From Chaetoceros tenuissimus (taxonomy: Eukaryota > Bacillariophyta > Thalassiosirophyceae > Chaetocerotales > Chaetocerotaceae): a stretch of 64,000 nucleotides of DNA. The notes beneath the pieces are model-generated. The model worked only from the letters and a program-made list of their open reading frames with translations. It made no database searches and was not told where the DNA came from. A program made the translations under genes and the position numbers. Below are positions 2,577 through 63,549 of the stretch, piece after piece; position 1 is the stretch's first letter; every line of letters starts with the position of its first letter. The stretch lies in the NCBI GenBank assembly GCA_021927905.1, contig BLLK01000029.1, positions 806,001-870,000 on the forward strand, in the 5' to 3' direction.

Positions 2577-5500
2577 TTATGCTAGCAGAGGTTCTTGCAA
2601 TTCTGTCGAGGAATTTCTGTTGGTCGATGCTCCCTTTTTCTTATTGTGTAAATCGGCATCCACCATGGTTCTCAATTGCCCGTTATTTATCTTGAGCAAA
2701 TCTGATGGTTTACCATATTCAATGACTTCACCATCACCCATAACTACAATCTTATCCGAATCAAGAACTGTATCCAGTCTATGTGCTACAATAATCACTG
2801 TGGCTCCCTTTTCCACAAATTCCTTCTTGATTGTGTTTTGGACTTGAGCATCTGTATTCGCATCAACAGAAGAAGTTGCTTCATCGAGAACTAAAATTTT
2901 GCTTTTTCGAAGTAATGCGCGTGCCAAACAAATGATTTGCCTTTGTCCTGCACTAATGTTTTTGCCTCCTTCAGAAATCATAGAATCTAGCCCATCAGAC
3001 GAGCGATATTGACGAGCGAGGTCGGGTGATGCTTTTTCCAGTGCCTGCCAGCAATCCTCGTCAGATGCATTTCCAGTGGCATCCAGGTTATACTTTAGAG
3101 TTCCTTCAAAGAGAACTGGGTCTTGGGGAATAATGGAAAGAGACTTTCTCAAACTTTGAAGGCTTAATGATCTAACATCCACACCATCAATTTCGATCGT
3201 TCCTCCTGATTCAATTTCGACCAATCTGAAGAGAGTCAATAATAATGTGCTTTTCCCGGATCCCGTTCTTCCTACTATTCCCAACGTAGACCCTGGTTTG
3301 ATTGAAAGATTCACATTTTTAAGAGCAAGTGGAGCAGATTCACTGTATCTCATTGAAACATTTTTAAAGTTGATGGAACCTCTCCACGGCCATCCACTGG
3401 AAATCAGCCCAACATCATTTTTTGGAGTCGTAGGAAGTATGATCTTTTTGGTTTGATCCAGTTCACGCAATGCTTCCCCGATCTTGCTTTTTTCTTGAGG
3501 AATATTGTCGGGCAAGTTATCTTGGCTTGGTCCAGAGCCAGAGTTAAGATCCGTGATTTCTGTAACTCTCTGAACAGAAAGCATCTGGCTTTCTAAATCA
3601 GTCAGTACTCGCACGGCCCAAGTAAGCAAACCCGTGATTGCCAATGATTGTGTAAGGCCCCATCCAGCACTTCCACTTTTCATTTTACCCATTCTAGTCA
3701 AAAATACAGAAGCAAACGCAGCAGTTAATACAACTACATTTCCAAGTGTCTCTAATCGTACAGATAGCCATCTATCTAAAGACTTCACGGTATAGATAAC
3801 ATTGAGATTGTTATCTGTCAGCTTTCTCAATCCATTTGACCAACGTTTTGGACTTTGTGGGATACTTCGTATAGTTTCAGCACCCTTCAACGCTTCTTGG
3901 AATTGAGTGTAGATGGGACTGCGGCTCTTGGACTCAAAACGCTTCAAGTCACGTGCTGCTGGTCTAAATTTGGTCATAATATTTGTGTAAAAGATGGAAA
4001 TGAATAGCAGAGGAACTACCATTCCTGGTGTCATGAGCGAAGTGAGACCAGCAACAGTGATGGCGATATTGAGGAAACAGAAAAGAACGGATCCTATGCC
4101 ATCAGGTACTCCACGATCTACGGTTTCGAGCTCTTTACCGAATCTTGAAAGCAGTTGGCCCGATGGAGTTGAGTCGAAAAAAGTGACAGGTGCATTAAAT
4201 ACAGAAGCGAGCATTTTGTTGTGAATGAATTCTGATGCTTTGGAGCCAACTTTCATCAGCAAGAAACTCCTTAACCATAAAGTAACGGAGACCACGCCTG
4301 CCGCGTAAACCAATGATTGTAAGTATTTACTTCCAAGCGCTGATGCTGTTTCGACTCCCAATTCAGTCCATTTTGCAACCGTATATTGCTGAAAAAATTG
4401 GGCACTATTAGATAGTAGGTAGCATCCCAATGCCGTAGAAATCAAAAGGGGATTTCTGACACTCTTCAAGTAAGTCATATAAGTTGCGATAGGCACAGCT
4501 CCTTCTGACATTTTGTCATCAATTGTCTGAAGAGCTTTTCCATCCTTTTTCTCCGACTCAGCCTCTTTATCGTCCACAACCTTTGACGATGTATCACTTG
4601 CAACAGTAGAATTATTTAATTGGGTCACTGTACGTGGGCTGTCACGAGTATTGGATTCTTCAACCATCACATTTTTCATTGTTGACTGAGATACAATATC
4701 CTTCTCCTTTTCCAATGTTGCATCTATTTCTTGATTTTCATCAGACTTCAAATGCTCAGAGTCAATAGAGATGCTTCGGAGATCATGTCCTCTCGAAATA
4801 AGGTCGTCGTATGTACCAACATCAACAATTTTTGAGCAGTCCGATTTCATTTTTCCCATCAATACAACCTTGTCACATCTTCTTGGTAAAGAGACATCAT
4901 TTGTAACAAAAAGAACTGCTGCATTTCTCTCTCTCAACCTTTTTGACACTCTATCGAAAACCAATGCAGATACTTTCACATCAAGTGCAGACAGCACATC
5001 GTCCAAAATATAAACTCCTGCATCTTCATTATACAAAGCCCGTGCAAGTTGTACTCTAGCCCGTTGACCACCTGATAAACTCGACCCCCCTTCACCAACA
5101 TCAGTGCTAAAAGAAAGCGTGCCTTGACTTATGTCTTCATCCAAGCCTGCGTCATATAATGCGTTTTGGAACCTCCGTTCATCAAACTCCCTTCCGAACA
5201 AGATAGCGTCTTTCAATGTACCCTTTGTCAACCAAGCCTCTTGAGCACAATATGCCACATCACCATTGAGTGCAACCCTTGTGACATCAGACATGGAGCC
5301 TTCTATTGCGGATGGATCTACAACTACTCTAGGTACAGGTTCTAATTCACCCAATAATGATCGAACAAGGCAAGATTTACCAGATCCAACAGGCCCAACA
5401 ACAGCTACGATCTCTCCACCATTTACGGTTAAATTAGCCCCACATAATGCTGGAGATGGTATGGAAATTGTTTCTCCATTCTTTGCTCTTGTTGGTTTTG

Positions 5501-7213
5501 CCCATAAAAAGTTTCCATTTTCTAATGTAATTTTTCCTCCGCCATTTGTCTTTGATAAATGAGCAACATAAGGTGTCAAGTCCTCTTGACGGAGATATTT
5601 CGAGAGTCTTCTTAATGCATTTTTCCCGTTTGCAATAGAGTCAATCACCATGGGATAAAATAGCAGTGGAAATCGAAGTTGATTGAACAAAGAAATTGCT
5701 GTAAAAATTGTACTTGCGACTATAGGTCTGCCTGTTTTTTGATATGCTGTAAGAGTTACAACAAGTACAATAGCTGGTACTGCATTTGAAATAGCTTGGT
5801 TGAGCGCACGAAAAGCACCACGTGCAATGTGACGCTTGATTTCTTCTTGCCTTGCATCCTCAATTTTCTTTTCAAATTCCCTTTCCCATGCTTGTAGTTT
5901 TAATAATTTCATATTGGTAATTGCTTCCACAGTTTTCCGTGTTCTCACATCTTTAGCCTCACTTTCATATTTACTCAATCTGTTAAGAACTCGTAAGCAA
6001 AGGGCGTTGGTAGGAATTGTAAGTAACAAAACCGATACACCTAAAGAAAATATTAGAAATTTCTAAAAAAGGCCATATCATGTAAATATTTCTCAAACAT
6101 ACCTGCAAATACGCTAGGACCTAAATACTTGTAAAGTAGGGAAGAATAGATACAAAATTGTAATATTCCATCCCACAATGTATGGATTTGTAAAGATGTC
6201 ATTTCAATGGTAGAGACATCTGACTGCATCAAGTTCAACACACTACTTGACTCTCCAACTGACTTTTTCTTCTTGTCATCTTTTTCATCTTTCTTCGAGC
6301 TATCACTTTCTATATTCTGTCTCGATGAAACTCGCAAACTTTTATCAAATATCAAACCTGATAGAGACCCCCTCACCATAGTCGAGCACTTTACAATGCT
6401 GTGAAAGTAAGCGTTCTCTATAACCATTTTGATACTTAAAACAGCCACAAGGTCAAAAGCTGCTCGGATAGCTTTTGACGGATGATGCATATCTCCAGAC
6501 TCAATTAGTTTCAATAACCTAGAAACTAAGATAGCAGGAAATGCCTGAATCAAGGTGTTTAACAAACGAAGAATACCAGTCTTGGCCACATTTCCCTTTT
6601 GATGTATAAATAGTGCTTTGGCCAATGTCAAAGATTCTGAAGTAGACAATTTCTCTTCTATTGAATCAGCCAATGATTTATCCGATGCATTCGCAGAATG
6701 GGATCTCAACTGCTCAAGTTTTCGCTTAGCTTTGGATTTACATTTTGAATATATTTTCTCTAATTCAGGAACTTGATGATCCATTTTGATTGCATCTTTT
6801 GAAGGAAAGATGTCACCTTCTTCCAACTGACGTTTTTTTGATATCTTGAGTAGCGGATCAACATAATTATAAAGCATACGCGATAAAATACTACTTTGAT
6901 ATTCCCCACGCAAATGACCTCCATTATTACTGTCACTTTCAATTACAGCTGATGATTGAAGCCGTGTAGAAGATTCATTGGATGCAGCAGACTTTGGCAC
7001 CTCTAAAGGATTCCTTGTCCTTGACGGTGAAAATTGCGAGTGACTGCTATGCTTGCTTGGTGCTATAGCTGCAGATACTGTCGTCCTTCCAATTCCGTAG
7101 GGTGAAGCAAGAGGTAAAATCACAGCATAAGCAATAGAAAGCCAAAGCGTTGATTTTTTTGTCCTCATTTTGTAATGGTACTTGTCTCGAACAAAATATT
7201 CCTTTCTCTTCAA
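2577..7213 (-). CDS. ABC transporter, ABCC (MRP) subfamily, full-length, two exons
   Basis: Exon 1 is 7213-6103 and exon 2 is 6040-2577. The 62-bp intron (6041-6102) has donor GTATGT and acceptor TTTAG and restores the ABCC-like string LGPSVFAGVSVLLLTIP across the join. The spliced protein has 1524 residues: TMD1, NBD1 (Walker A GPVGSGKS about 586-593, signature LSGGQRAR about 692, Walker B VYILDD about 713), an acidic linker, TMD2, NBD2 (Walker A GRTGSGKS about 1295, ISAGQRQ, ILVLDEATSSVD). An Asp in place of the catalytic Glu after Walker B of NBD1 is the normal asymmetry of ABCC proteins. Family members export glutathione or other conjugates and organic anions, often across the vacuolar membrane; the substrate here cannot be told. 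A second ATG at 7168 (MRTKKSTLWLSIAYAVIL) begins a signal-like segment and may be the true start. Confidence 0.92.
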
Positions 7214-8432
7214 TTCAAGTCAAGATCTGAACTCTATGTGATTGTAGAGCATCCACTATGTTATTGAATCCAGTCAGTTTAGGTATGTAAAATGGAAGAA
7301 TACTGAGTAGAACAAAGCTGACCAAGAAACTTCCAGTTTATAATGGTACTTAGTCAGAAGAGAAACATCACAACCAACCTGATTTGAGTGATGCTTTTTT
7401 GCTCCTCCTGTTCCTCGTGTCGTGGTCAGATTTGCTTGGATGAGAACCTCGCTTCAAGGTTTAGAGTATCCCTTTACAATCAGTCACTCTATTAATAAAA
7501 GCAAAAGGATACTCTACTTTTGCTTTGATAGAAAAGAGTGTTTGTACCAAAAGAAGAGGACTTCTTCAGCAACGGGTTTCAAACGAGGAGACACAACTAG
7601 TCTAGGTATTCGTTTATTGTACCGGAACAATTTAGGCTGAAAATGGAACAATCGGAACAGGAACAATTGGAACAACGGTCAAAATAACGGTTATACTTAT
7701 AGTCATTTATTACTGATTCTTCTACGTTACTGATTCCTCATGTACATCTACTAATGGAAACTACAATGCTTTGATAAATATACTTTCCAGCCATTAAATA
7801 GTGCAAAAGATCTACTTCAAGTTTATAATTTACCAAATCATTATCATTACATGTGTCGCGACAAGCTTGAATTGAGAAAATATTCTTAATAACATCACAA
7901 TGACTTGAATAATTCTGCTTTGTTCTATATGAAATAATAATGGAGATGTCTGTGTATTTATCTTCTAGCTTAGTGGTGATAATACTGATACTTGAGTATC
8001 TGAAGGAGCAACCTTCATTGTTGTTAGGAAAATCGTCGGTAGCCTTTTGGATTCTATGTAGAAGGATTTCTACCAATATTTTCGAGGGAATGGGTTATTG
8101 TTAAAACAAATTAAATAGATCTAAAGTGAGAGTTAATAAAGAACTACAATAGTGACAACAGCCACAACAATAGTAGTGCAAACGAGCATTTTGCTGGGTT
8201 GCCAATGATGAAAGGAGAGACGGACAGACGATGTATAAGTGGTGTATACTAGTTATAATAGGGTCATATTTGTTGTGGGTTATGAACCGGAACACTAACC
8301 GGAACAATTGGGCCACCCTCACGGAACACTGGACGAATACCTAGACACAACCTACTTTTTGCTTTTTCAAAACACATCAACAATACCTTCACCTATCTCT
8401 TCGTTTCATAACTAATAGAAACTAAGAATACA
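7214..8432. other. gene-free divergent spacer with candidate short element
   Basis: This 1.2-kb stretch separates the 5' ends of the divergent transporter and CASP genes. No frame in it looks like protein. Most of it is taken up by the candidate inverted-repeat element at 7598-8344; the remainder must hold both promoters. Confidence 0.5.
7598..8344. mobile_element. candidate MITE-like non-autonomous DNA element
   Basis: The 13-mer TCTAGGTATTCGT at 7601-7613 recurs as its exact reverse complement at 8333-8345. The similarity continues more weakly inward, both arms reaching a CCGGAAC-like motif. Just outside lie direct copies of ACACAAC (7591-7597 and 8345-8351) that could be a 7-bp target-site duplication. 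Subterminal GGAACAATT/GGAACA motifs are repeated at both ends (7623-7677 and 8287-8330), a common layout for transposase binding sites. No transposase is inside, so the element would be non-autonomous at about 747 bp. The exact ends are uncertain because the left arm has a few extra bases before the repeat. Confidence 0.4.
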
Positions 8433-23792: not shown

Positions 23793-23912
23793 GGTAAATC
23801 TCTGTAAGATTATGCCACAATTGGGGGATTGCCCGTCGTTTGTAGAACATTGAAAGGGACTTTGTGTCCTTGAATATTGTTTTGAAGATTACTTACTTCT
23901 TTACTTTAGTTT

Positions 23913-23982
23913 GAGCTATGAGCTATGAGCTATGAGCTATGAGCTATGAGCTATGAGCTATGAGCTATGAGCTATGAGCTAT
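23913..23982. repeat. perfect heptamer tandem repeat (GAGCTAT)10
   Basis: Ten exact copies of GAGCTAT fill 70 bp between the kinase start and the tRNA gene. Perfect copies imply recent slippage. No function is implied. Confidence 0.97.
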
Positions 23983-24049
23983 GCAACGAAATATGTTACA
24001 GATAGAATTAGAGAGTTTGATCTCAAGTAGCGCTGATCTCAATAGCCCT

Positions 24050-24121
24050 TCTCCTGTAGTGTAGTGGTTAACACTCTTGACTTTGAATCAAGCATCCGAG
24101 GTTCGAACCCTCGCAGGAGAA
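24050..24121 (+). tRNA. tRNA-Gln (anticodon UUG)
   Basis: A full cloverleaf can be drawn. The acceptor stem TCTCCTG (24050-24056) pairs with CAGGAGA (24114-24120), with A at 24121 as discriminator. The D-arm is GTGTAGTGGTTAACAC. The anticodon stem CTTGA/TCAAG closes the seven-base loop CTTTGAA, giving anticodon TTG. The T-arm CGAGG-TTCGAAC-CCTCG includes the B box GGTTCGAACCC. No intron is present and CCA is not encoded, as is usual in eukaryotes. Confidence 0.95.
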
Positions 24122-24124
24122 TTG

Positions 24125-50686: not shown

Positions 50687-53389
50687 TCATCCTCTAATAA
50701 CTCTGGCCATGAGACTAGCAATTCCTACATAGGTAACCGCCCTCTTCACTCTAGAGAGAATCTTTTTCCTGCGACTCATTTGTCCCTTCTTGAGGTTAAG
50801 GACAACATTGTTGCTTCCTGTGTCTAACATTTCCTCTTCATCGTTGTTTCTGCTGCTTCTTCTTGAAAATGGATTGAGTGAACTTCTGTCCGCCTTTTTA
50901 AGGTTGTAAAGAATTTTGTTCTTATTGCCTTCTCCTCTCTTTAGTTTGAGGACAACTCCGCTCTTGTTACTTGTGCTTTTCCTCACATTACCTACAGTCT
51001 CATCAAGTCCAAAGGCACTAGCATGAGAATTGCGACTTGAGTTATGTAATGTATTTTTGTACACATGACTCTTGATATGAGTGTCATTAGCCATAGTCCT
51101 CTTCATGCTTCCACTCTTATTTGGGTTCAATTTCTCAGGAGTTGCCCAGAAGTTTGGAGGCAAAATCTTCTCATCTGTTTTTTCACCAGTAAGTACAGAT
51201 TTCTTTTCCTCGATGTATGCTGCCATGTTATCGCTAATTTTCTGTTTCCTAACAGAATCAATCTCTTTTTCACTTTCAATTGAATTCGAGGTCTTTGCAA
51301 AATCTGATGCTTTCTTTTCAACTGTTTCTTCCTTCTTGATAACATTCTTATAATTTGTTGCAAAAGTAGATCGTTCATATTCAGAAGATAACTTCTTTTC
51401 ACGATGAGTCTCAACTTCCGATTCATCAGATGGGTATGCAATAGAGATTCCATTTATCAATACAGAATCTGGATGCCAGACATCCTTCTTTTCTTCACTT
51501 GAATTTGCACTCTTGACATTATTCTGTTCTCTCGAATTGATATCGTTCAATTCCGCATTCTTCATTGTAGACGACGAGTCAGTATTTTGTCCTGTAGAAC
51601 CGTCAGCATGAATATTATCAGACCACGAGAATGATCCAGTACTCGAAGCTGTGCTCTCTTTGGAAGTGAAAATATCCTGAGTAGATTGACGAGGAATTGA
51701 TGAAGCTACTGGTGTATTCTTCTGTCTTGGATCAACGGATGGAAGACTCTCCTTTCCATGAGGAGACCAAGTAAAAAGGCTATTCTTAGGAGCTGGGGAT
51801 GGTGAAGATGGCTCTGCTTCTACTTCCGTGTTAAGTCCCTTTGCATTGAAGATATCCTGAGTAGATTGACGAGGAATTGATGAAGCTACTGGTGCATTCT
51901 TCTGTCTTGGATCAACAGATGGAAGACTCTCCTTTCCATGAGGGGACCAGTTGAATAGACTGTTCTTCTTAGGAGCTGGGGATGGTGAAGATGGCTCTGC
52001 TCCAGATGGAGTGTTAAGTCCCTTTGCATTGAAGATATCCTGGGTAGACTGACGAGGGATTGACGATGCAACAGTTGGCTTCTTCTTCTCCTCAATAACA
52101 GTATTTTGAACATTTTGTTTTTCCTTTGCATTGAAGATATCCTGAGTAGATTGACGAGGGATTGACGATGCAACAGTTGGCTTCTTCTTCTCCTCAATAA
52201 CAGTATTTTGAACATTTTGTTTTTCCTTTGCATTGAAGATATCCTGAGTAGATTGACGAGGGATTGACGATGCAACAGTTGGCTTCTTCTTCTCCTCAAT
52301 AACAGTATTTTGAACATTTTGTTTTTCCTTTGCATTGAAGAGATCTTGAGTAGATTGACGAGGGATTGACGATGCAACAGTTGGCTTCTTCTTCTCCTCA
52401 ATAACAGTATTTTGAACATTTTGTTTTTCCTTTGCATTGAAGATATCCTGAGTAGATTGACGAGGAATTGATGATTTTCCTTCATTGTTTGAAATCCTCT
52501 CATTAATGGTCTTTGCATCATATTTTTTCTGCTCTTTCTTATCAAAAATATCTGTGGTACTTGTTGTATCTCTTGGAGTATTTGTTTTTGTTCCAGCATT
52601 TGCATGATTTTGTGCTGCTTGATCATTTCTAGGTTTTCTCTGAGTTGTAGAAAACTTAGCATTATATCCAATATCATCTTTCTCTACTTTGCCAGCCGTG
52701 GTTGATTTTGGAGCTGCACGTTTGTGAGCCTTGTAGGTTGAAGTTCTTTGGTACATGTTTTTAGCAGAATATGAACTTCTTTGAGAATCAGGAGATGCAG
52801 GTTTATGACGGTTTCCAACTCGGTTTCCACTCATATCAAAGCCTTGCACATCATTATGCCAGACTTGCTGACTTTGTTGTTTTCTCTCACGGTGGTTAGG
52901 GTATCTGCGACTGTGATTGTTATACCTTTTACTTGCCCTTGCATAGCCCTTCTTTTTACTCTGTTGCTTCTCAGACTCGGACATTTCAGGCATATCCTCT
53001 GACTTCCCAGTCAAGAATGCATAAGCAGCATTGATTCTCGCAAACTCATCATTTGCCTTTTGTTTTTCTTCCTCAGATGCATCAGAACTTGTGAAGGTAT
53101 CAGGATGATATTTCAGAGCCATACGCCTGTAAGCCTTTTTGATTTCTTTGATGTCAACTACATCAGGTTCTAGGTTTAGAATTGCCAAAGGGTCGGATGT
53201 ATCTGGTAGACCAGAAGCATAGTTCAGCCTTGTGAAACTATTTCTTGGAAGTTGAGGTTCTTCATAAGTAAAGAATCCTTGCTGAGTGAAAACGGATTCA
53301 CCGTTTGACATCGGAGTAGGAGCAACTAAGAAAGCATCAGCTGTCGAGATCAGCAATATTTTTGCTAGGGCAACTTGAAAGAACTTCAT
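50687..53389 (-). CDS. plastid-type J-domain protein with tandem repeat array
   Basis: A 900-residue single exon. A signal peptide ends T-A-D-A-F-L-V-A-P, a diatom plastid-type junction. The J domain (residues about 62-140, HPD at 95-97) is nearly the same as in the 43593-45695 paralogue. The KOW and HA domains of the paralogue are absent. Instead there are seven copies of SIPRQSTQDIF. Four sit in 34-residue units with NAKEKQNVQNTVIEEKKKPT; the last ones alternate with NSLF(N/T)WSPHGKESLPS. The C-terminus has two basic motifs of the same type (VVLKLKRGEGNKNKILYNLK; VVLNLKKGQMSRRKKILSRV) and ends in a hydrophobic segment. The protein should be mostly disordered. Role unknown; a scaffold is a guess. 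Confidence 0.8.
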   Translation of the reverse strand: MKFFQVALAKILLISTADAFLVAPTPMSNGESVFTQQGFFTYEEPQLPRNSFTRLNYASGLPDTSDPLAILNLEPDVVDIKEIKKAYRRMALKYHPDTFTSSDASEEEKQKANDEFARINAAYAFLTGKSEDMPEMSESEKQQSKKKGYARASKRYNNHSRRYPNHRERKQQSQQVWHNDVQGFDMSGNRVGNRHKPASPDSQRSSYSAKNMYQRTSTYKAHKRAAPKSTTAGKVEKDDIGYNAKFSTTQRKPRNDQAAQNHANAGTKTNTPRDTTSTTDIFDKKEQKKYDAKTINERISNNEGKSSIPRQSTQDIFNAKEKQNVQNTVIEEKKKPTVASSIPRQSTQDLFNAKEKQNVQNTVIEEKKKPTVASSIPRQSTQDIFNAKEKQNVQNTVIEEKKKPTVASSIPRQSTQDIFNAKEKQNVQNTVIEEKKKPTVASSIPRQSTQDIFNAKGLNTPSGAEPSSPSPAPKKNSLFNWSPHGKESLPSVDPRQKNAPVASSIPRQSTQDIFNAKGLNTEVEAEPSSPSPAPKNSLFTWSPHGKESLPSVDPRQKNTPVASSIPRQSTQDIFTSKESTASSTGSFSWSDNIHADGSTGQNTDSSSTMKNAELNDINSREQNNVKSANSSEEKKDVWHPDSVLINGISIAYPSDESEVETHREKKLSSEYERSTFATNYKNVIKKEETVEKKASDFAKTSNSIESEKEIDSVRKQKISDNMAAYIEEKKSVLTGEKTDEKILPPNFWATPEKLNPNKSGSMKRTMANDTHIKSHVYKNTLHNSSRNSHASAFGLDETVGNVRKSTSNKSGVVLKLKRGEGNKNKILYNLKKADRSSLNPFSRRSSRNNDEEEMLDTGSNNVVLNLKKGQMSRRKKILSRVKRAVTYVGIASLMARVIRG
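52051..52458. repeat. 102-bp coding tandem repeat, four near-identical copies
   Basis: The word GACGAGGGATTGACGATGCA starts at 52051, 52153, 52255 and 52357, a strict 102-bp period. A fifth, diverging unit begins at 52459. The copies differ at only a few positions, so the expansion is recent. Confidence 0.97.
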
Positions 53390-53888: not shown

Positions 53889-55159
53889 TTACTCAGACTT
53901 CTTGGTTGCAGCAAACATTCCATATTGCATCAAACCACGGTCAAAAGCACGATGCATTCTCTCCAAGCAATAACCGTCTCTTAGACACTTCAAATACTTG
54001 TGAGGCTTGAAGATAAATCCACGTGGGTCATATACTCCAACCCAAACAGAATGACGCCAGGAAGCGATAGTCTGCTCATTCCAATCATCAGTGGTGACCT
54101 CATTCATCAATCCAGTAGCATCAATAATTTCTTTGTACTTTTCAATTGAGATAAAGTATGGGTGTGTCCTGTTCGAGAAAAGATGGTTAGGAAGAGGGTG
54201 TAAAACATTGATATAATGATCCATGTTCTAATTGTTGTTCACAGCAATGAGACTGCATCGTACTTACCATTCCTCGTACAAAAATTTCAGATCTCTTTCA
54301 TCTTTTTCGTCAAATGGTACTTCTCTATCATCACGTTGGCACCAGGTTGCCATAACAAACTTTCCACCTGGTTTCAATACACGCATCATTTCATTGATGT
54401 ATGCCTCTTTATCAGGCATATGTTCTCCAGACTCACAAGCCCAAACTATGTCAAAAGAGTTATCTGGAAATTCCATCTCCAAAGCATTCATGACAGTGAA
54501 TTTTGCGTTTGGTACATCCTGCTCTACTGCAAGCTCAGTAGCTCTCTTCACCTGATTTGGAGAAAGAGTAATTCCAGTAACATCTGCATTCTTTCCAAGC
54601 TTCTTTGCTAGATATCTTGATGTACCCCCAACACCGCATCCAACATCGAGAACCTTTGCGTTTGCATCATCCTCTGGATTGATTCCTCCAAGTTTCATCA
54701 TCTCATCCACAAAATCATATTTTGCCTCAATAAAATTCTTCTTTTTGTATCCATTTTTCATCCTTTCAAATATAAAATTAGACCGATTCAAAAATCTCTT
54801 ATTGAAACAGAAAGCTGCAAAAATACTTACTCTTCTTCATTGTAATATCCTAAATGAATGTGTTCACCCCAGTAGTACTCAAGGATTCCATCTCTAGTCC
54901 ATGCGTCATATTCACGTGCTACAGATCCATCTTCATATTTTCTAGATGGTCTGTCAAGCACAGCCTTTATTCCAACAGTTCCAGCAACAGCTGCTCCCGC
55001 GATTGCAACAGCTGCAGGTGCACCAATCTGTTTAATTGTAGATTTTACAGCTTCAGTCTTGATTCCCATGTTGAGTTCAGTAGACTTAATGGTTTGTGAA
55101 GGTGATGGCGCAAACGCCGACACCAAGGACAATGTTGAAAACAAGGCAAGGAACTTCAT
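53889..55159 (-). CDS. gamma-tocopherol methyltransferase-like enzyme (VTE4-like), plastid-targeted, three exons
   Basis: Exons are 55159-54831, 54762-54268 and 54168-53889. The introns of 68 and 99 bp start GTAAGT and join EEEMKNGYKKK and FLYEEWTHPYFISI. The product has 367 residues. The start at 55159 (MKFLALFSTLSLVSAFAPSP) gives a signal peptide with a perfect ASAFAP-type plastid cleavage site; an ATG eight codons upstream would spoil it. The catalytic part carries WGEHIHLGYY, SAM-binding VLDVGCGVGGTSRYLAKKLG, GITLSPNQVKRATELA and ACESGEHMPDKEAYINEMMR, the signature of tocopherol and related methyltransferases. It would methylate gamma- to alpha-tocopherol in the plastid; a related quinone or sterol-like substrate is possible. 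Confidence 0.85.
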
Positions 55160-55389
55160 TCTATTTGTTAAATTGAATTGCAATCTATGAAAATAATTAC
55201 AATGAATGGAGTATCGAAAGCAAAGTGGATGTTATGCACTGTTGTAGTAGAAGCATGCATTCAATTCATCATTTGTCAGTACGAGTATCTTTCTGAACAC
55301 GTCATAGTAGTGGCTCGACGATGAGTGGATCTCTCTTTTGATCTTGACTCAGATTTACCGTACATCAATATCCATATCCAGTTGGGCTG

Positions 55390-55430
55390 CCGTCGGGGCG
55401 GTTTTCGCGCCAAAAACCCCGCCCCGACGG
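55390..55430. repeat. GC-rich hairpin at the outer left arm
   Basis: CCGTCGGGGCGG (55390-55401) and CCGCCCCGACGG (55419-55430) are perfect complements around a 17-base loop. The right arm keeps only one half (61144-61155). The stem is far more GC-rich than the surrounding DNA. Confidence 0.9.
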
Positions 55431-55780
55431 GAAAAGAAAAAACATCAAATTTCCAACGAAAAAACTTACATAAACTAGACATGAGTTTTTATCTGAACTA
55501 TTCATTACTTTACACAACAACCAACCATGTTTCACCTTCCATATTTTATCAAGATATACAATAGGTGACAATCTAATAGAATCGTGATCGGTAAGTTATA
55601 GTTTTGCGATTTGCAGCCAAACGATAAATTTGAAAGTGATGACTAATTTTTCCTTTACAAAACGATTTTTCTAGAAGCTAGGCGAGAATTGGGGTCATGG
55701 AGGTGGTGTAGAATAGTGTTGCAACGGTTCAAGAGTTGATTTGGGGTCTAATGCGGATATGCGCAAGGTTGGATTGGCGA
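55401..55780 (+). repeat. left terminal inverted repeat of the transposon
   Basis: 380 bp, reverse complement of 60794-61173, with about six mismatches by eye (98%). Short frames inside it are not genes. Confidence 0.95.
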
Positions 55781-55878
55781 TTCTAAATAGATTTAAGAGT
55801 AAACAAGAAATTAAATATTTTCATTTCTACGTAAATTAATTTCCACTCGATCATGCTTCCTTTCTACACCTGTACTTC

Positions 55879-56475
55879 TTACAAAAAATCGTGAGTAGGC
55901 CAGCTTTGACTGTTTGGGCCGTCACCGTCCACATCGTACTCAACTTCATCAGTTTCCTCCTCAATTTCCTCTTCAGCTTCCTCCTTCAATTCTTCCTCTA
56001 AATTTTCTTCAGCATTTTCTTTCTCATCAACTTTCTCAGTGATCTTTTTGGTCTTGGCCAAAACCTTCAATTGGTGCATGAAATTATAAACATCAAGAAA
56101 GTTTCTTGCGGTCATTTCTCCGTCTTTGCTATCCTTGAATGATACGCAAAAGTTACGAGGAAATCCTTCGCGAAAAATGGAAACATCAAACGCATTGAAT
56201 ACAACCGTATCCTTGCGCAACTGGTGGAACTTGGCTGGCAAATCCGAAATGCAGCTATTAAGAACAAGCTGATGACCAACATAAGCGACCACAAAAGCAT
56301 GATTTGAATTACTTCCTTTCTTTTTAAGAATATAAATTTTGAGTCTATTCTCTTCACGATCCTGCTTACCCCCCTTTCGGTAGGTGTCTCCATTCTTCCT
56401 TCCGATACGAAACATGTATGAAAATTCGCTTTGGTAAAGCACAGCGAAGTTTTCGTCTTTGATTGAGATTGCCAT
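55879..56475 (-). CDS. transposon accessory protein of unknown function
   Basis: A 198-residue frame inside the transposon, transcribed away from the transposase gene. Residues 1-135 look like a compact β-rich domain ending in a helix (FCVSFKDSKDGEMTARNFLD then VYNFMHQLKVLAK), a pattern compatible with a PH/EVH1-like fold, though this is only a guess. Residues about 145-185 are almost all Glu/Asp (EENLEEELKEEAEEEIEEET), then a short DVDGDGPNSQSWPTHDFL tail. No catalytic motif is seen. A 268-bp spacer (56476-56743) separates it from the transposase and should hold a two-way promoter. Confidence 0.7.
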   Translation of the reverse strand: MAISIKDENFAVLYQSEFSYMFRIGRKNGDTYRKGGKQDREENRLKIYILKKKGSNSNHAFVVAYVGHQLVLNSCISDLPAKFHQLRKDTVVFNAFDVSIFREGFPRNFCVSFKDSKDGEMTARNFLDVYNFMHQLKVLAKTKKITEKVDEKENAEENLEEELKEEAEEEIEEETDEVEYDVDGDGPNSQSWPTHDFL

Positions 56476-56743
56476 TGTTATATTTACGTATTTGTTTTTA
56501 TGAGAAAGTGATTGCAGTTTTTAGTCTTGTTCCATCGGAATCACTTATGGCAGTAAGTCATGGATATGATTTAAAAATCAGTCCCATTTTGAATAAGGAT
56601 TCTTCTTTTCCATAGGCAAAGACTTCGTAAACTCGAAAGTTCTAAAGTGAACATACATTCTAAAGCAATCAGTAGAAAAATGTTTCAATCAATATGGACA
56701 CAAGTACTTCAAGATTACTCTTACACTATATGATTTCTGCGAA

Positions 56744-59700
56744 ATGGCTGGACCAATTCAGCAATCGTTTGAAGAAATAGACTGGACTCTTATCAAAGAA
56801 ATTGAAGAGTCAGAGTTGTACTTTGATACTCCAAATGAATTTGAGGATTGTATTTTGAATGCAGAAGAATTGAAAGTTTTTTTAACTCCTCCTGCTGCGG
56901 ATGAATGGAAAGACTTCTCCAGCAATGAAAATGCCACAATTTTTAATATCGACGATGCAAAAGAAAGACAATGGCAGATGGGAAAAGTCGAGATAGAACA
57001 TCTACGGAATAAGTTGAAAACAACTTTTGGTATTGATTATCAATCTCTATCCTTGGAGGATCTTGCATCATCTATTATCTTCACAACACTTGGTCCAGAA
57101 AGTAAATTTGGTTCGTTTTTCGCTGAGGAACTTTCGTTGAGTAAAATGGAATATGCGGCTTTTATGTGCACTCTTTTTACTCAAGCTGCCTATCGAGTTA
57201 GTGTAACCGAGCTTTATTTGCCTCAGTCTAGATTGAAAGTGCCTATGGAAGAAGAGGATTATCTCAAGGTGTGGGAGAATATGGCAAAAAAAAAGAAGAT
57301 TCCAGAGTTTGAAATGCGCACACCTATGTCACCTATTCCGCTTTGGAAAGGTGTTGAAGAAATAGTAAATACACTCTTGAGAACTGTATCTATTATCGAC
57401 CGAAGGGAAATCATTTCTATATCGCTTGATGATGATAAAGTTTGGTTTGGTTCAACAAAAGCGCGAACAACAGATCAATTTGATATTAAGTTTACAACTC
57501 ATGTCAAACCGAATAGAAAAGGCATCGTGGTACATACTGCTGTAACTACAGGGGTAATGGTTCCTGTTGCTGCAACTGTACAACAGACCAATGATGATAG
57601 TGTGAGCTGCTTTGAAAGAATTTTTACCTTTCTTTTTGGATCTGGAGGAAAACTTGATTTAAGAAATGTTGAAGTTCAATCAGATAGAGGATATATGCTA
57701 CCAAATCTTGTGTTTGATTTGATTCTTCGTCACGGAGGTAATCTTGTTGGCACATGTAAAAGAATTGCAAACTGTTGGCCATTTACACACAACCAAAACC
57801 TCGCTGACAACGATACTCGCACACTCATAGAAACCAAAGGAGCACCATCTTTGTTCTTGAAATATTTCAGTGTCGATCGTGGAGAGAAGACAATTTTTGC
57901 TTCTTCATTTCGAAATGGATCTGGAGCTGTTGCAACTGCACTTTCAACTTTGCATGGAAATCATCAATGGGAGGGCATTGCATTAAAACCATCTGAGAGA
58001 ATTTTATATAACAAAGATTCAACTTTTTTTTCTTCCAAATTCCTTGTTGGGATTGATATTGATGACGGTGTAAATAAATTTACTGACGACAATATTGAAA
58101 TTTCTTTGCGAAATGATATTATGAACCAAATAAAGCCATTTACATTGCGACAAGGTAAGATTGTGAAATTGAATTCGCTTTTAAAAAAATGAAATGATTG
58201 GCTCATTTTTCATTCATAGGAACTGCAGATTGGTTTTGGTTGCGCAAATTTAGCCTGACATCTTCCCAAGCACATGGAGCCTTCCTAAAGTTACTTCCTG
58301 ACAAGACAGATAATGATGATTGGATTAAAGTTGCAACTTACCTCTATGGTGAAGATTGGGCTGAAGTCCTTGGTCTAGGAGCTCAGGAACAAGATAGTTC
58401 AGATACAACTACTACAAATGATGACCTAAAGTCGTTTCTTCAAGAGTACGACGTTGGATCGTCGGAGTGCAAAAAATGCGCTGTCAGTTTTTTGCGTGAA
58501 TATGTTGAAAGCGAGATTGTGCTTAGCAAAGAAAATGCAAAGACGATTTGGACAGGCATCAATTTTGAAAATGTAAATCGAGCAGAAATCAAAAGAGACA
58601 TCAAGGCGATACTAGCAGAATTCAATCCAGAAATGCTTGGAATGAAAAATGCAAATGATACCTTGATGCAAGAATGGCTATCATCTTGCAATTCAAAACG
58701 AGAAATTTTATTTTACAAGATCCAAAGTCTAAAAGAAATCATGAAGAGAAGACACTTGAAGAAGAGACAGGGCGTTTCAAATCTTAATGCGTCCGACATG
58801 ATTGATGGAATTTCAGGTTCTGACAGGACAAAGATTGTTGAAGATGTTTCTCTTGAACGCGATGTAGATAACTTATCAAGCAGGGAAAAAGCTGTTCTAG
58901 AAGTTTTGAAAAAAAGCTTTATGCCGCACCAGAAGGGTAAGGATCGGGAGTATTGTCAAATTGGACATCGACTAGAATTACCAATACTAAAGAAGTTTGT
59001 GGAGCTCATTCCAAGAGTCCGAGAATACTCAAATGTCAAAGTGAAGAATGCGTACACTGTAGGACTCGCTGCCAAGAAAGATGCAGTGTACGCAAAGGAC
59101 TCTATTGACTTTCTTTTGTCAGTAGAGGAGAATAACATGCGTTCAATCTGGGGTTTTGAATGCAAAGGTCGAGTCACTCACTCAACAGAGGAAGAGGAGA
59201 GGCAAAACTTTACTCTGAATCAAAACCCACATCTTCGTATACAATCGAGAGATGTCTTTGAAATGATTCAGCGTGTCAGTGAAAGATTCCAAGTCTTACA
59301 GCATGTGTTTGTATACGATCTAGATACTGTTGTTCATGCCATAGGAAACTTGAATGCTTCGCTAATCCGAACATGTATCATTGATTTTGACAATGACATC
59401 AAGGATAGTTTTGGAGCTGTGCTTGACGACATCAAGCATGAAACCTTAGAGTGGGCTTATCCTACTGTTCTGACTGGTAGGAACGAAGTTCTACCCATTC
59501 CAGATGAGATAGTTGATATTGCTGTCAAATTTATACCAGAGATAAACGATGAAGAGACTCTGCAAGGTGCTGTAAACTTGTGGCACGTTCTACGTCAACA
59601 AGTTTTGCCAATGCCATCTTTCCGAAGATTGATCCCAGCAGTATGTGCATATTGGAATGCAACAAAAGGAGGTTCAGACACGATCACCAAACTGATGGAT

Positions 59701-60405
59701 AGCTGTATCCTCCGCATTCCTAAAGCATGGATGAATAATGAAACAGTTGCAATTACTCGCCTTGTACAACTTTTGACGACTTTAAATCATCGCCTTCTTC
59801 AGTGCGGAACTGGCTCCGAAAATCTCAACTATCCAAGCCTCTTACATTGGCGACATGCTGCAAGTGAAAGAACATCATATCATACAACACTCCTTTTCCA
59901 TGTAACTGCGTTTCAAAAATATATAGATGAATGCAAGACTTCTGAAGTTATGCCAATGACACGAGTAGAACCTCCTCGTCGTACTGATCGAAGAGCACGT
60001 GTTGACGGAATATTGCCTGAGAAAATTGACTTTGCTCCAACTGCCCCAAATATTTGTACTCCGCCAAGACTTGCATCAATGCTTGAAAGCGGCAATGAGC
60101 CAACAGAGTACAAAACAATGGCTAGGCGCTGTATGGGTTCTATTATGCAAGCTTATCCACCAAAAGCAAACAAGTCTTGCGCACTTTGTAAAAAGAGTAC
60201 AGGTTACTATTGTACTGGTTGTAAACGTTGGTTTTGTTTCGCAAAACAGAAAAAGAATGCAGAGAATCTTTATTCTCACACTGTGCAAGGAACAGAAATG
60301 TCATTCATCAAAACTTGTTTCCATACAGCACACGAAGACTGTTGGAACGAATACTACACTGAGTCGATCAGAGAAGATGAAGTTCCTTGTGTTTCACCAT
60401 CATAA
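56744..60405 (+). CDS. piggyBac-like DDE transposase fused to a PD-(D/E)XK nuclease-like domain and Zn cluster, two exons
   Basis: Exon 1 is 56744-58154 and exon 2 is 58220-60405. The 65-bp intron (GTAAGA...CATAG) joins TLRQGTADWFWLRKFSLTSS. The product has 1198 residues. The catalytic part has ISISLDDDKVWFGS (D229-D231), then VQSDRGYMLPNLVF with GTCKR after it (D314), then D474 in ADWFWLRKF. This layout recalls the piggyBac D-D-D core and its D-N-F-F...G-T-x-R element. Residues 710-860 read GHRLELPIL (E723), KDSIDFLL (D767), GFECKGR (E784, K786) and RIQSRDVFEMIQRV (Q812), as in YqaJ/lambda-exonuclease nucleases. The end has a Cys/His cluster (C1124, C1127, C1135, C1138, C1143, C1170, H1172, H1175, C1178), like the C-terminal cysteine domain of piggyBac proteins. 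The frame is intact. Confidence 0.75.
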
Positions 60406-60793
60406 AAATTGCAAACGAAGATTCAAAGAGGAGAAATTGATGTATTTTTAGAATTATTATAACTATTTAATTTCTTGTTCACTCTGAATTTCTTTTTATG
60501 TACAGAAGATATTGTATTAAATATTTGGTATTGACCGTCAGAGAAAACATCATATTCGGAATTCATCATCGTTTTACTTCGGTTCCATTTTTTGCCACCA
60601 CAACATATACCATACTCTAATGGACTATATCGTTATTAGAAACAAATATTGAAATGTTCAAATGATTCATGCCAAGTAAGTACCATAGAGATCAACGGTA
60701 ATCAATTCAGAAAATCCTAAAGCCAAATTCATTATTTTCTTCAAATTCGTTTGGTCGACATCCATGTCATAAATGAGCCAATTGAGCTTGAAG
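60406..60793. other. transposon internal 3' spacer
   Basis: This 388-bp stretch lies between the transposase stop and the inner edge of the right arm. It is AT-rich and without a gene; AATAAA-like polyadenylation words are not distinct. Nothing else is seen. Confidence 0.5.
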
Positions 60794-61173
60794 TCGCCAA
60801 TCCAACCTTGCGCATATCCGCATTAGACCCCAAATCAACTCTTGAACCGTTGCAACACTATTCTACACCACCTCCATGACCCCAATTCTTGCCTAGCTTC
60901 TAGAAAAATCGTTTTGTAAAGGAAAAATTAGTCATCACTTTCAAATTTATCGTTTGGCTGCAAATTGCAAAACTATAACTTACCGATCACGATTCTATTA
61001 GATTGTCACCTATTGTATATCTTGATGAAATATGGAAGGTGAAACATGGTTGGTTGTTGTGTAAAGTAATGAATAGTTCAGATAAAAACTCATGTCTAGT
61101 TTATGGAAGTTTTTTCTTTGGAAAGTTGATGTTTTTTCTTTTCCCGTCGGGGCGGGGTTTTTGGCGCGAAAAC
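60794..61173 (-). repeat. right terminal inverted repeat of the transposon
   Basis: 380 bp, reverse complement of 55401-55780. It differs from the left arm at about six positions, and its outer edge lacks the second half of the hairpin. Confidence 0.95.
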
Positions 61174-61195
61174 GCAAAAAACCTGGATATGGATA

Positions 61196-61590
61196 GAATA
61201 CTACGTACAATAATAGGTTTTTATTCTTTTAGTTTCTTTTTAGTTTCTTCGGCTTTTTCCCGGTCATTTCGGAGCCTGAAATAGTCATTGTTGTACATTT
61301 GGCACACATGTTATGTTGATAGATGGACTTCTTGGGAAAGTATGGTGTACTGCTTCCAACCAACCACTCCCAGTCTCGACTCTCATAATTGTGTTTCTGT
61401 TCAAAACAGTAGTGGTGATTGCGTATTGCAAGGTGCAACAAAAGGAATACTTGTCTGCTGTTGAGTTCACTTCATTGCGCACTCATCAAGAAAAGAGGTT
61501 GACCTCATCTATAAGATAGGTTTCCAAAGAATATCCTCCACAGTAGCTTGTTCATTCATTTCTTTCAATCCAGAAAAACTGTCACAACAA
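61196..61590. other. spacer upstream of the sulfotransferase gene
   Basis: A 395-bp stretch outside the transposon that should hold the sulfotransferase promoter. No gene or clear repeat is seen. Confidence 0.4.
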
Positions 61591-63549
61591 ATGTTTAGAA
61601 CCCAGGAAAAGCTCCAAAGGATCCTCAGCAGGAGGGGTGTTAAAGCCTTTGAAAGTCCTTGTATCCACTACTTCAAATCACATCAGAATCATTTTTATGG
61701 AGCACTAATGGCTCTCACGGTCTTTCTACTCATTCTTCCACAAACCTTTATCAAGACTCGAGAAAAGTTGCATGAAATACTTCCTGTTGGAGGCGAATTG
61801 AAAGAATATAAAGAATTTCATGAAATGATTGAGTCAGGAACAGACACTAGTACACCATTTGGAAACTGCAAAATTCATCAACCAAGGCATCCACAGGAAC
61901 CGTTGAACCCTATCATGGTGGCAACATTTCCTGGATCTTCATCTGATTTGATGCGCTTATTGATTGAAACAATGACGGGTACTTGGACTGGAGCTCGGAC
62001 ATTTCGAGATGATGTTATTGCAATTAAAACTCATTTTCCTGTCTACGATAATCATATCAACATGAAGCAACTTCTGACAGAGTTGAAAGGAGATCCTGCA
62101 AGGGTGATTTTGATACTGAAAGATCCAATGTATTCCATAAAGGCTTTTTATGATTATATCCGTCTTACGTCGGAACAACGAGGCGATCCTCCTCCCGAAG
62201 AATGGACAGAATGGTGTGAAATGAATTTTGATAGTCACATAGAAAAGTGGGAAATATTCACAAAGTTTTGGTTGTCACATCCTGTAATAGAAGAGGGTAA
62301 CAAACATGTGGTGGTGTATGAAAGTTTGGTAGATCCAAAAAGTGGCGTGCAGGAAGCAACTGATATCATGGATTTCATGAAAAGAGTTACACGTATAGCA
62401 GAAGATCGATCGTCAGAAATAAGCTGTCTTTGGTCGCGTGTGGTGCAATTCAATGTGAAAGCGGACGAACCAGCACCTAGACGGAGATTACAGACTTATA
62501 ATATAGGAAATGATATGACCAAAGCGGAAGCATCACCTAGACGGATACTTCGGCGAAACGCTTCCAACGTGGAGACTGATTCGAAGAACAATCTATATAC
62601 ATTTGTTCAACTCAATAAGATTGCTGGTATTCTGACTCAACTCATTGACGAATTATCTTTGGAAGATCACGTGTTACAAGCTCTATTGAAGTATCGTATG
62701 TCTGCATTAGAAAGTATGAAAAATTTGATGAATGACGATCCAGTTCTTGTGAGTAATAGTCACGGTACATGCATGGTTACAACACCACAATATGAGCCCA
62801 TGATCCCAATGTTTCAGGCTTCTTATCCTGGATCTGGATCTGAAATGATGAGAGACTTATTATCTGCAATAACTGGAGTAAAGACTGCAGAGACAAAGCG
62901 CAGAAATGATGTGGTGGCAGTAAAAACTTTTTTCCCATATCGGTCATTTGATATCCATCCGAGTTTCTTAAATAGCGACATGAAAAAGTTGGTGCTCTTG
63001 GTGCGTTATCCTCTTCATGCAATATCTTCCAACTTCAACCACATTTACTGGAAGCAAAATCACCTTCAAGCACACAGCGTCCAGCCACCAAAAGAAGCAT
63101 GGGAAGACTATAGAGATGCTCATTTTGACGAAGAGCTTGATGCATGGATAGAACATACTGAATACTGGATTAGTCATTTCAAGGGACTCAACCGACTTGT
63201 GATATCTTATGAAAGTTTAACCAATGAGGAGACTGGGCCTCAGGACGCTATGAGATTAAGTCTATTCATTCGATCGATATATAATGAAGGAACTCTAAAC
63301 CCTGCTCCAGTATTTACTCTTCCATGTCTATGGTTCCGAGCAGTAAGAATACTGGACGAATCAAATAGTGACATGTTCCAAGATAGTAGCAACCATTCAG
63401 GAGGTGTATACCGACCAGCATTCACAACCATTCAGCTGGAGAAAACTGCAACGAAACTAAATAGCTTACTTACAAAAATGAAAAACGAGAAACGCATAGC
63501 ACCGATATTGCAATCTTATTGGGAACACACAGTAAATCAAATACACTGA
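61591..63549 (+). CDS. type II membrane protein with two tandem sulfotransferase-like domains
   Basis: A 652-residue single exon. A membrane span at about residues 36-54 (FYGALMALTVFLLILPQTF) follows a basic N-terminus, giving the Golgi type II layout. Domain 1 (about 105-370) has MVATFPGSSSDLMRLLIETM, the counterpart of the 5'-PSB loop (T-Y-P-G-S-G) that binds PAPS, then RVILILKDPMYSIKAFYDYI and HVVVYESLV. Domain 2 (about 405-640) repeats the order: QASYPGSGSEMMRDLLSAI, KLVLLVRYPLHAISSNF, RLVISYESLTNE. The Arg of the 3'-PSB motif is kept in domain 2 (LVRYP) but is Lys in domain 1 (LKDP), so domain 1 may have weaker or no activity. Such enzymes sulfate sugars or proteins with PAPS in the Golgi; acceptor unknown. 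WSCD-like proteins are the closest resemblance I can suggest. Confidence 0.75.
   Translation: MFRTQEKLQRILSRRGVKAFESPCIHYFKSHQNHFYGALMALTVFLLILPQTFIKTREKLHEILPVGGELKEYKEFHEMIESGTDTSTPFGNCKIHQPRHPQEPLNPIMVATFPGSSSDLMRLLIETMTGTWTGARTFRDDVIAIKTHFPVYDNHINMKQLLTELKGDPARVILILKDPMYSIKAFYDYIRLTSEQRGDPPPEEWTEWCEMNFDSHIEKWEIFTKFWLSHPVIEEGNKHVVVYESLVDPKSGVQEATDIMDFMKRVTRIAEDRSSEISCLWSRVVQFNVKADEPAPRRRLQTYNIGNDMTKAEASPRRILRRNASNVETDSKNNLYTFVQLNKIAGILTQLIDELSLEDHVLQALLKYRMSALESMKNLMNDDPVLVSNSHGTCMVTTPQYEPMIPMFQASYPGSGSEMMRDLLSAITGVKTAETKRRNDVVAVKTFFPYRSFDIHPSFLNSDMKKLVLLVRYPLHAISSNFNHIYWKQNHLQAHSVQPPKEAWEDYRDAHFDEELDAWIEHTEYWISHFKGLNRLVISYESLTNEETGPQDAMRLSLFIRSIYNEGTLNPAPVFTLPCLWFRAVRILDESNSDMFQDSSNHSGGVYRPAFTTIQLEKTATKLNSLLTKMKNEKRIAPILQSYWEHTVNQIH

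Follow-up and report, generated by a model that had tools for sequence, protein, structure and literature searches.

A cut-and-paste DNA transposon of the diatom Chaetoceros tenuissimus with a piggyBac-like transposase and a putatively embedded lambda-exonuclease-like domain

A stretch of 64,000 nucleotides (nt) from Chaetoceros tenuissimus (assembly GCA_021927905.1, contig BLLK01000029.1, positions 806,001 to 870,000 of the forward strand; hereafter the window, with positions counted from its first letter) harbours a DNA transposon whose body extends from 55372 to 61192 (5,821 bp) and is bordered on both sides by 4-bp repeats. Between two long, inversely repeated arms lie two genes on opposite strands, namely an accessory gene and a transposase gene (56744-60405, forward strand) that encodes 1,198 amino acids (aa) once its intron is removed (Table 1). 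A preliminary description of this DNA, made from the letters alone, had placed the outer limits at 55368 and 61195, which proved almost exactly right, and had reported 380-bp inverted repeats with about six differences, two open genes on opposite strands and a short-intron transposase, all of which we recovered. An unusual feature had escaped it, i.e. a lambda-exonuclease-like domain that appears to be embedded in the transposase.

Copies, ends and target sites

The left end was used as a query against the genome from which the window derives (41.0 Mb in 68 contigs). Thirteen matches were obtained, which after pairing correspond to seven elements, one of them without a right end. The first base is the same in all seven copies (7/7), and the shared segment stops at or beside the equivalent of 61195 in the six complete ones (6/6), while the flanks are mutually unrelated and similarity breaks exactly where the element ends. 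Because so many copies lie in unrelated flanks, a chance origin of the structure is excluded. The copies form three graded subfamilies with divergences of 0, 0.2 and 3%: copy L010 equals the window copy in 5,828/5,828 bases, and L015, whose sequence stops where its contig does, matches L010 without a difference across 3,511 bp; L011 and L012 share one sequence, which is 99.76% identical to the window copy; and L013 and L014 share another (~97%). Both genes are uninterrupted in the six complete copies. The element is best read as an autonomous cut-and-paste DNA transposon: it occurs repeatedly and with exact limits, duplicates 4 bp of ATAT type at its target, and has its genes open wherever a copy is complete. 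These data also support the earlier view of the window element as an intact, recently moved two-gene transposon, three of the seven copies being identical over their shared bases, and they dispose of the possibilities that it is a single copy or that its arms are absent elsewhere in this genome. In PMC8613185 the section on transposable elements mentions retroelements only.

All left ends (7/7) read ATAT-CCATATCCAG, and the right ends read CTGGATATGG-ATAT in five of the six readable cases and CTGGATATGG-ATAG in the window copy. This ATAG is either a later change or the trace of an insertion into an imperfect target; since the window copy otherwise equals L010 in every compared base, we lean to the imperfect target. 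Copy L012 sits inside another repeat, and eight paralogues of that site were compared. Five of them (99.7-100% identity, uninterrupted) read CAGTAC-ATAT-GGATTC with one ATAT each and are paralogous empty sites, so that the comparison of occupied and empty sites proposed earlier could be made on a sister copy; ATAT is likewise present in a sixth paralogue (89%), and the remaining two (84% and 79%) differ there. Empty sites turned up only for L012 and for one element of a second family (L062, see below), hence not for the window copy, and the repeats surrounding L010 were too diverged for the junction to be read. The repeat that hosts L012 is itself a multi-copy family, with at least five near-identical copies over ~289 bp (L042-L046; on C14, C16 and C29).

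The second, distant family was found in the same genome via protein similarity (29-35%) and has the same domain order. Its member L062 (G000:C34:779000-788999, element at 3726-7445) has the ends CCCACTCC...GGG and contains an open reading frame (ORF) at 4099-6738 with the C-terminal part in another frame, the frame breaking at a short direct repeat; no other ORF of at least 150 aa lies between its ends, and its empty site (L072) holds one ATAT. Short non-autonomous relatives of ~950-965 bp (L073, L074 and L075) also occur, as do L076/L077, which carry extra internal sequence and are treated as one element. Among the five elements of this family with both ends read, ATAT was found in four, among them L073, L074 and L076/L077, which it flanks on both sides, and ATAA in one, L075, again on either side. 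The termini are 5'-CC...GG-3' in both families. Because L075 has ATAA on both sides in the same orientation, its ends being otherwise inverted, the length of the duplication is 4 bp; a 2-bp TA duplication, as the ATAT/ATAG of the window copy had suggested, is ruled out by the same element. The earlier statement that no TTAA duplication is present therefore stands, TTAA being absent at the copies of the window element and of the second family, but a target duplication does exist, i.e. the 4-bp ATAT, which happens to be imperfect in the window copy.

Gene conversion, or something akin to it, makes the two arms of each copy change together: within 372 aligned columns they differ at 6 positions in the window copy, at 3 in L011 and at 3 in L013, while the arms of the window copy show 15-18 differences per 372 columns to those of L013, and at 11 positions the base shared by both arms of L013 is different from that found in all four arms of L009 and L011. 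Since the arms co-evolve, their likeness cannot date an insertion, and the earlier use of near-identical arms as a sign of recency has to be abandoned; an age estimate must rest on the identity between copies, which is strong evidence. The two ends of the element are asymmetric, as the outer half of a GC-rich palindrome near the left end is missing at the right end. Folded as single-strand DNA, the left-end palindrome reaches a z score of -3.33 (0/200 shuffles equally good), while the right end gives a weaker fold (z -1.76; 10/200).

The two genes and their predicted products

Strong evidence that the intron is spliced comes from L011-L014, which have 67 nt at its place although both exons remain open and in frame. 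Protein predictions of several relatives start at this site (e.g. P0008, P0011, P0014) or read through it, and in P0004 additional residues are found at precisely this point. When the window copy is compared with L013, the ratio of nonsynonymous to synonymous substitution rates (dN/dS) amounts to 0.36 over the entire transposase, with 0.12 in residues 1-440 and 0.61 in residues 441-930; from residue 931 to the end there are 0 synonymous and 6 nonsynonymous changes, hence no ratio. The corresponding value for the accessory gene is 0.11, derived from just 6 synonymous and 3 nonsynonymous changes. Two relatives of its protein (94% and 81%) are present in the database, and no fold is claimed for it, the structure model being unusable (predicted local distance difference test, pLDDT, 36.5; 3 sequences).

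The best database match of the transposase is 'hypothetical protein CTEN210_09822' of C. tenuissimus (P0001; 97%, equal length). A first protein search (expectation value E <= 1) yielded 35 proteins and a profile search (E <= 0.01) at least 61, of which P0001-P0005 and P0007 are near-full-length relatives and P0006 reaches up to residue 809, most others representing one exon. When virus contigs were scanned with two peptide patterns, 25 stretches matched, none of them coding for a relative. Isolated relatives of the nuclease part and of the zinc-finger part are located at G000 C17:1307918-1309051 and C34:3299857-3300153 (31% and 33%) and are probably remnants. The alignments referred to below comprise 7 sequences (A4), 55 sequences (A6) and, in a mafft set, 90 full and partial sequences.

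Residues D229, D230, D314 and E410 are invariant across the 55 sequences of A6, from which the counts for D229, D314 and E410 were taken; the 90-sequence mafft alignment blurred the exon-1 columns (D229 71/87, D314 67/83, E410 74/90). Behind the nuclease region the motif N950-x3-G954-G955-S956-D957 shows the same spacing as N440, G444, G445 and D447 of piggyBac, although G954 is replaced by Ser in P0007 and L062. According to the available part of PMC7351741, D447 is the third catalytic aspartate of piggyBac and follows an insertion domain (372-433). From the conservation of D957 and the piggyBac-like spacing of its motif we propose D229, D314 and D957 as the catalytic triad, with the nuclease placed where piggyBac carries its small insertion domain; alternatively, the triad could be of the D-D-E kind and end with E410. 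In the structure model the best match of the transposase is likewise piggyBac, with the last helices predicted to come after the nuclease (families not shown in the VIA-align list of structure matches are not thereby ruled out).

The RNase H core of the transposase thus appears to be interrupted by ~470 residues of YqaJ type, for which the fold match suggests a PD-(D/E)XK nuclease, and the third aspartate, helices and a zinc finger would come after it. Where the nuclease residues are aligned, E723, E784 and K786 are conserved in 35/35 sequences, D764 in 36/37 and D767 in 35/36; by analogy we take these residues to correspond to catalytic ones of lambda exonuclease, with D764 as the Asp and E784 and K786 as the Glu-x-Lys. 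A Pfam match to YqaJ was obtained in 1/7 sequences only (E 0.21). The conserved C-terminal cysteines of the transposase (C1108, C1124, C1127, C1135, C1138 and C1143) probably form a zinc finger.

Among the 55 relatives, Pfam recognised the IS4-type domains DDE_Tnp_1 and DDE_Tnp_1_7; PF13843, the domain of piggyBac, was matched in 6/55 at E <= 0.1 (best 1e-4) and in none of the window exons; a Pfam scan of the window's own proteins produced nothing above the cut-off. Sequence searches of the PDB returned nothing at E < 0.1, the best being a NAM7/UPF1 zinc domain (0.12), and a profile-profile comparison with two canonical diatom piggyBac proteins gave no match, either whole or minus the nuclease columns. 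Canonical piggyBac-type (PF13843) genes are present in the same genome (C27:2126494, C27:851040, C39:443774, C16:3476517, C32:2111675, C16:274820), two of them in equal-scoring pairs.

Table 1. Features of the transposon in the window, in order of position
Feature	Position	Strand	Remarks
Left target-site repeat ATAT	55368-55371	.	ATAT left of 7/7 copies; single ATAT at the empty sites of sister copy L012
Left terminal inverted repeat tip CCATATCCAG	55372-55381	+	Seen at copy ends
GC-rich palindrome near left end	55390-55430	.	Outer half absent from right end
Left long arm, 380 nt	55401-55780	+	98% complementary to right arm
Accessory gene, 198 aa	55879-56475	-	Acidic C-terminal tail; open in 7/7 copies
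Transposase exon 1	56744-58154	+	Predicted: helices at the N-terminus; RNase H strands; two of the proposed catalytic Asp (first, second); additional strands
Codon of D229, proposed first catalytic Asp	57428-57430	+	Invariant in the 55 sequences of A6; position derived by hand
Codon of D314 (SDRGY), proposed second catalytic Asp	57683-57685	+	Invariant in the 55 sequences of A6
Transposase intron, 65 nt	58155-58219	+	GTAAG..AG; 67 nt in L011-L014, exons in frame
Transposase exon 2	58220-60405	+	Putative nuclease domain, proposed third catalytic Asp, helices, probable zinc finger
Putative lambda-exonuclease-like (YqaJ-type) domain, about residues 463-930	58220-59598	+	First few residues in exon 1
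Codon of D957 (N-x3-GGSD), proposed third catalytic Asp	59677-59679	+	Present in 34/35 sequences that cover this position
Core of C-terminal cysteine-rich motif (C1124-C1143), probable zinc finger	60178-60237	+	Conserved cysteines
Right long arm, 380 nt	60794-61173	-	98% complementary to left arm
Right terminal inverted repeat tip CTGGATATGG	61183-61192	-	Seen at copy ends
Right target-site repeat ATAG	61193-61196	.	Window copy; the other 5/6 readable right ends have ATAT

Two divergent genes start on either side of the element, a methyltransferase gene (53889-55183, reverse strand) and a sulfotransferase-like gene (61591-63549, forward strand), and their promoters may be separated or altered by it. 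Elsewhere in the window there are tandem arrays at 51667-52475, with units of 180 bp and 102 bp (89% and 97% matching), and about ten perfect repeats of the heptamer TGAGCTA directly ahead of a tRNA-Gln gene (23912-23983, 24049-24122).

Affinities to known transposons

The nearest known systems are piggyBac, KolobokE and ISL2EU, and at least one defining feature of each is missing here. PiggyBac is the best structural match of the transposase, and the element has in common with it a proposed third aspartate in an N-x3-GG-x-D motif, a 4-bp target composed of A and T only, a C-terminal cysteine-rich motif, which may correspond to the cross-brace zinc finger of piggyBac, and asymmetric ends with a palindrome near one of them (for piggyBac, see the available part of PMC7351741). 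Unlike piggyBac, which targets TTAA, it targets ATAT and tolerates ATAA, and it differs further by the lambda-exonuclease-like insertion of ~470 residues, the 380-bp arms, the second gene and the sparse PF13843 matches (6/55 relatives only). The distance to piggyBac seen in the preliminary description is thus confirmed with regard to the TTAA target, whereas in predicted fold and active-site motif the two are closer than had been thought. Because the piggyBac fold is predicted and the motif present but the TTAA target is not, we file the family as a separate piggyBac-like lineage with an embedded nuclease, outside piggyBac, KolobokE and ISL2EU (KolobokE being judged by description). The Tn5/IS4 family is bacterial and is not known to have an embedded nuclease.

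Among other readings, membership in the Kolobok superfamily deserves most attention. An element of the KolobokE type would have a D-D-E transposase with E410 as the final residue of its triad, and behind it a domain like lambda exonuclease and a C-terminal tail of unrelated origin; it would share with the window family a DDE-type transposase combined with a downstream nuclease of this kind, as well as a 4-bp AT-only target, and E410 is indeed invariant in A6. However, the target-site duplication is ATAT/ATAA instead of the TTAA reported for Kolobok, and the termini are 5'-CC...GG-3' instead of 5'-RR...YY-3'. In place of the expected C/DxxH signature, SxxH precedes E410 (WEG) in 7/7 sequences of A4, and its His falls below 90% conservation in the 55 sequences of A6; by inspection, neither D229-D314 nor D314-E410 contains four Cys/His suited to a CCHC finger, so that the Kolobok zinc fingers were not found either. 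Moreover, KolobokE reportedly has its nuclease behind the transposase domain, while that of the window family appears to lie inside the catalytic fold; the best predicted fold match is piggyBac, the nuclease being followed by the final helices, and Pfam assigns DDE_Tnp_1 and DDE_Tnp_1_7 (the comparison with Kolobok being one of published descriptions). We consider this assignment unlikely.

Considerably less probable still is a fusion of transposase and YqaJ nuclease within an ISL2EU-like (PHIS) element, even though in ISL2EU a YqaJ protein already accompanies the DDE transposase and the target is AT-rich, A|AT|T (PMC4482050, in its available part). ISL2EU has a separate YqaJ gene, a THAP-bearing transposase and a 2-bp AT duplication, whereas the window family combines one fused gene, a THAP domain being absent from the Pfam scans, with a 4-bp duplication, a predicted piggyBac-like fold and IS4-type Pfam matches. 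The least credible reading is that of an assembly or segmental-duplication artefact, or of an old immobile element: some copies are identical, which an assembler could produce, but the unrelated flanks with breaks exactly at the element ends, the graded subfamilies (0, 0.2 and 3%) with open genes in complete copies, and the paralogous empty sites of one copy all speak against it.

Possible mechanism and implications

The whole is, in our judgement, probably best explained by an autonomous cut-and-paste transposon that moves by a piggyBac-like mechanism, with a DDD transposase of piggyBac/IS4 type in which a lambda-exonuclease-like nuclease is embedded. The excision of piggyBac involves a hairpin on the 4-nt flank and seamless repair (PMC7351741, same part). 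By analogy, the transposase would nick the element ends and form a 4-nt hairpin with the flanking ATAT; the element would then be excised, the hairpin reopened and the element inserted into another ATAT with a 4-nt stagger. Being palindromic, ATAT would yield a 4-nt hairpin and a matching donor overhang.

The least certain step concerns the built-in nuclease, which presumably degrades 5'-3' like lambda exonuclease and would most likely process donor or transposon ends after cleavage. DDE transposases usually leave the repair of the donor break to the host. The nuclease may either trim a 5' flap that integration has left behind or resect the donor break and so have it repaired from a homologous copy; in the second case homologous repair would be promoted, the element would be copied anew and its arms could convert each other. 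The concerted arms and the sets of identical copies fit such resection, yet other explanations for them exist.

At least two lineages of eukaryotic transposons, ISL2EU (PMC4482050, in part) and KolobokE, have been described in which the transposase is accompanied by a lambda-exonuclease-like nuclease, and the same part of PMC4482050 gives the role of such extra proteins as unknown. Among the titles listed by the literature searches, outside whose scope Repbase lay, none dealt with a YqaJ nuclease embedded in a piggyBac-like transposase. As a tentative and rather doubtful possibility, the family may represent a new eukaryotic transposon lineage in which a phage-type recombination exonuclease was captured inside the catalytic fold of a transposase, such that one enzyme would both excise and resect, homologous repair would recopy the element and gene conversion would keep the arms identical.

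With a nuclease that is apparently part of the transposase core, likely key residues that are conserved, and a host with intact, near-identical copies, the role of such nucleases becomes directly testable. The targeting of ATAT/ATAA by a putative piggyBac-like fold offers a natural contrast for how piggyBac chooses TTAA, and the fusion could link jumping to the repair of the gap left behind.
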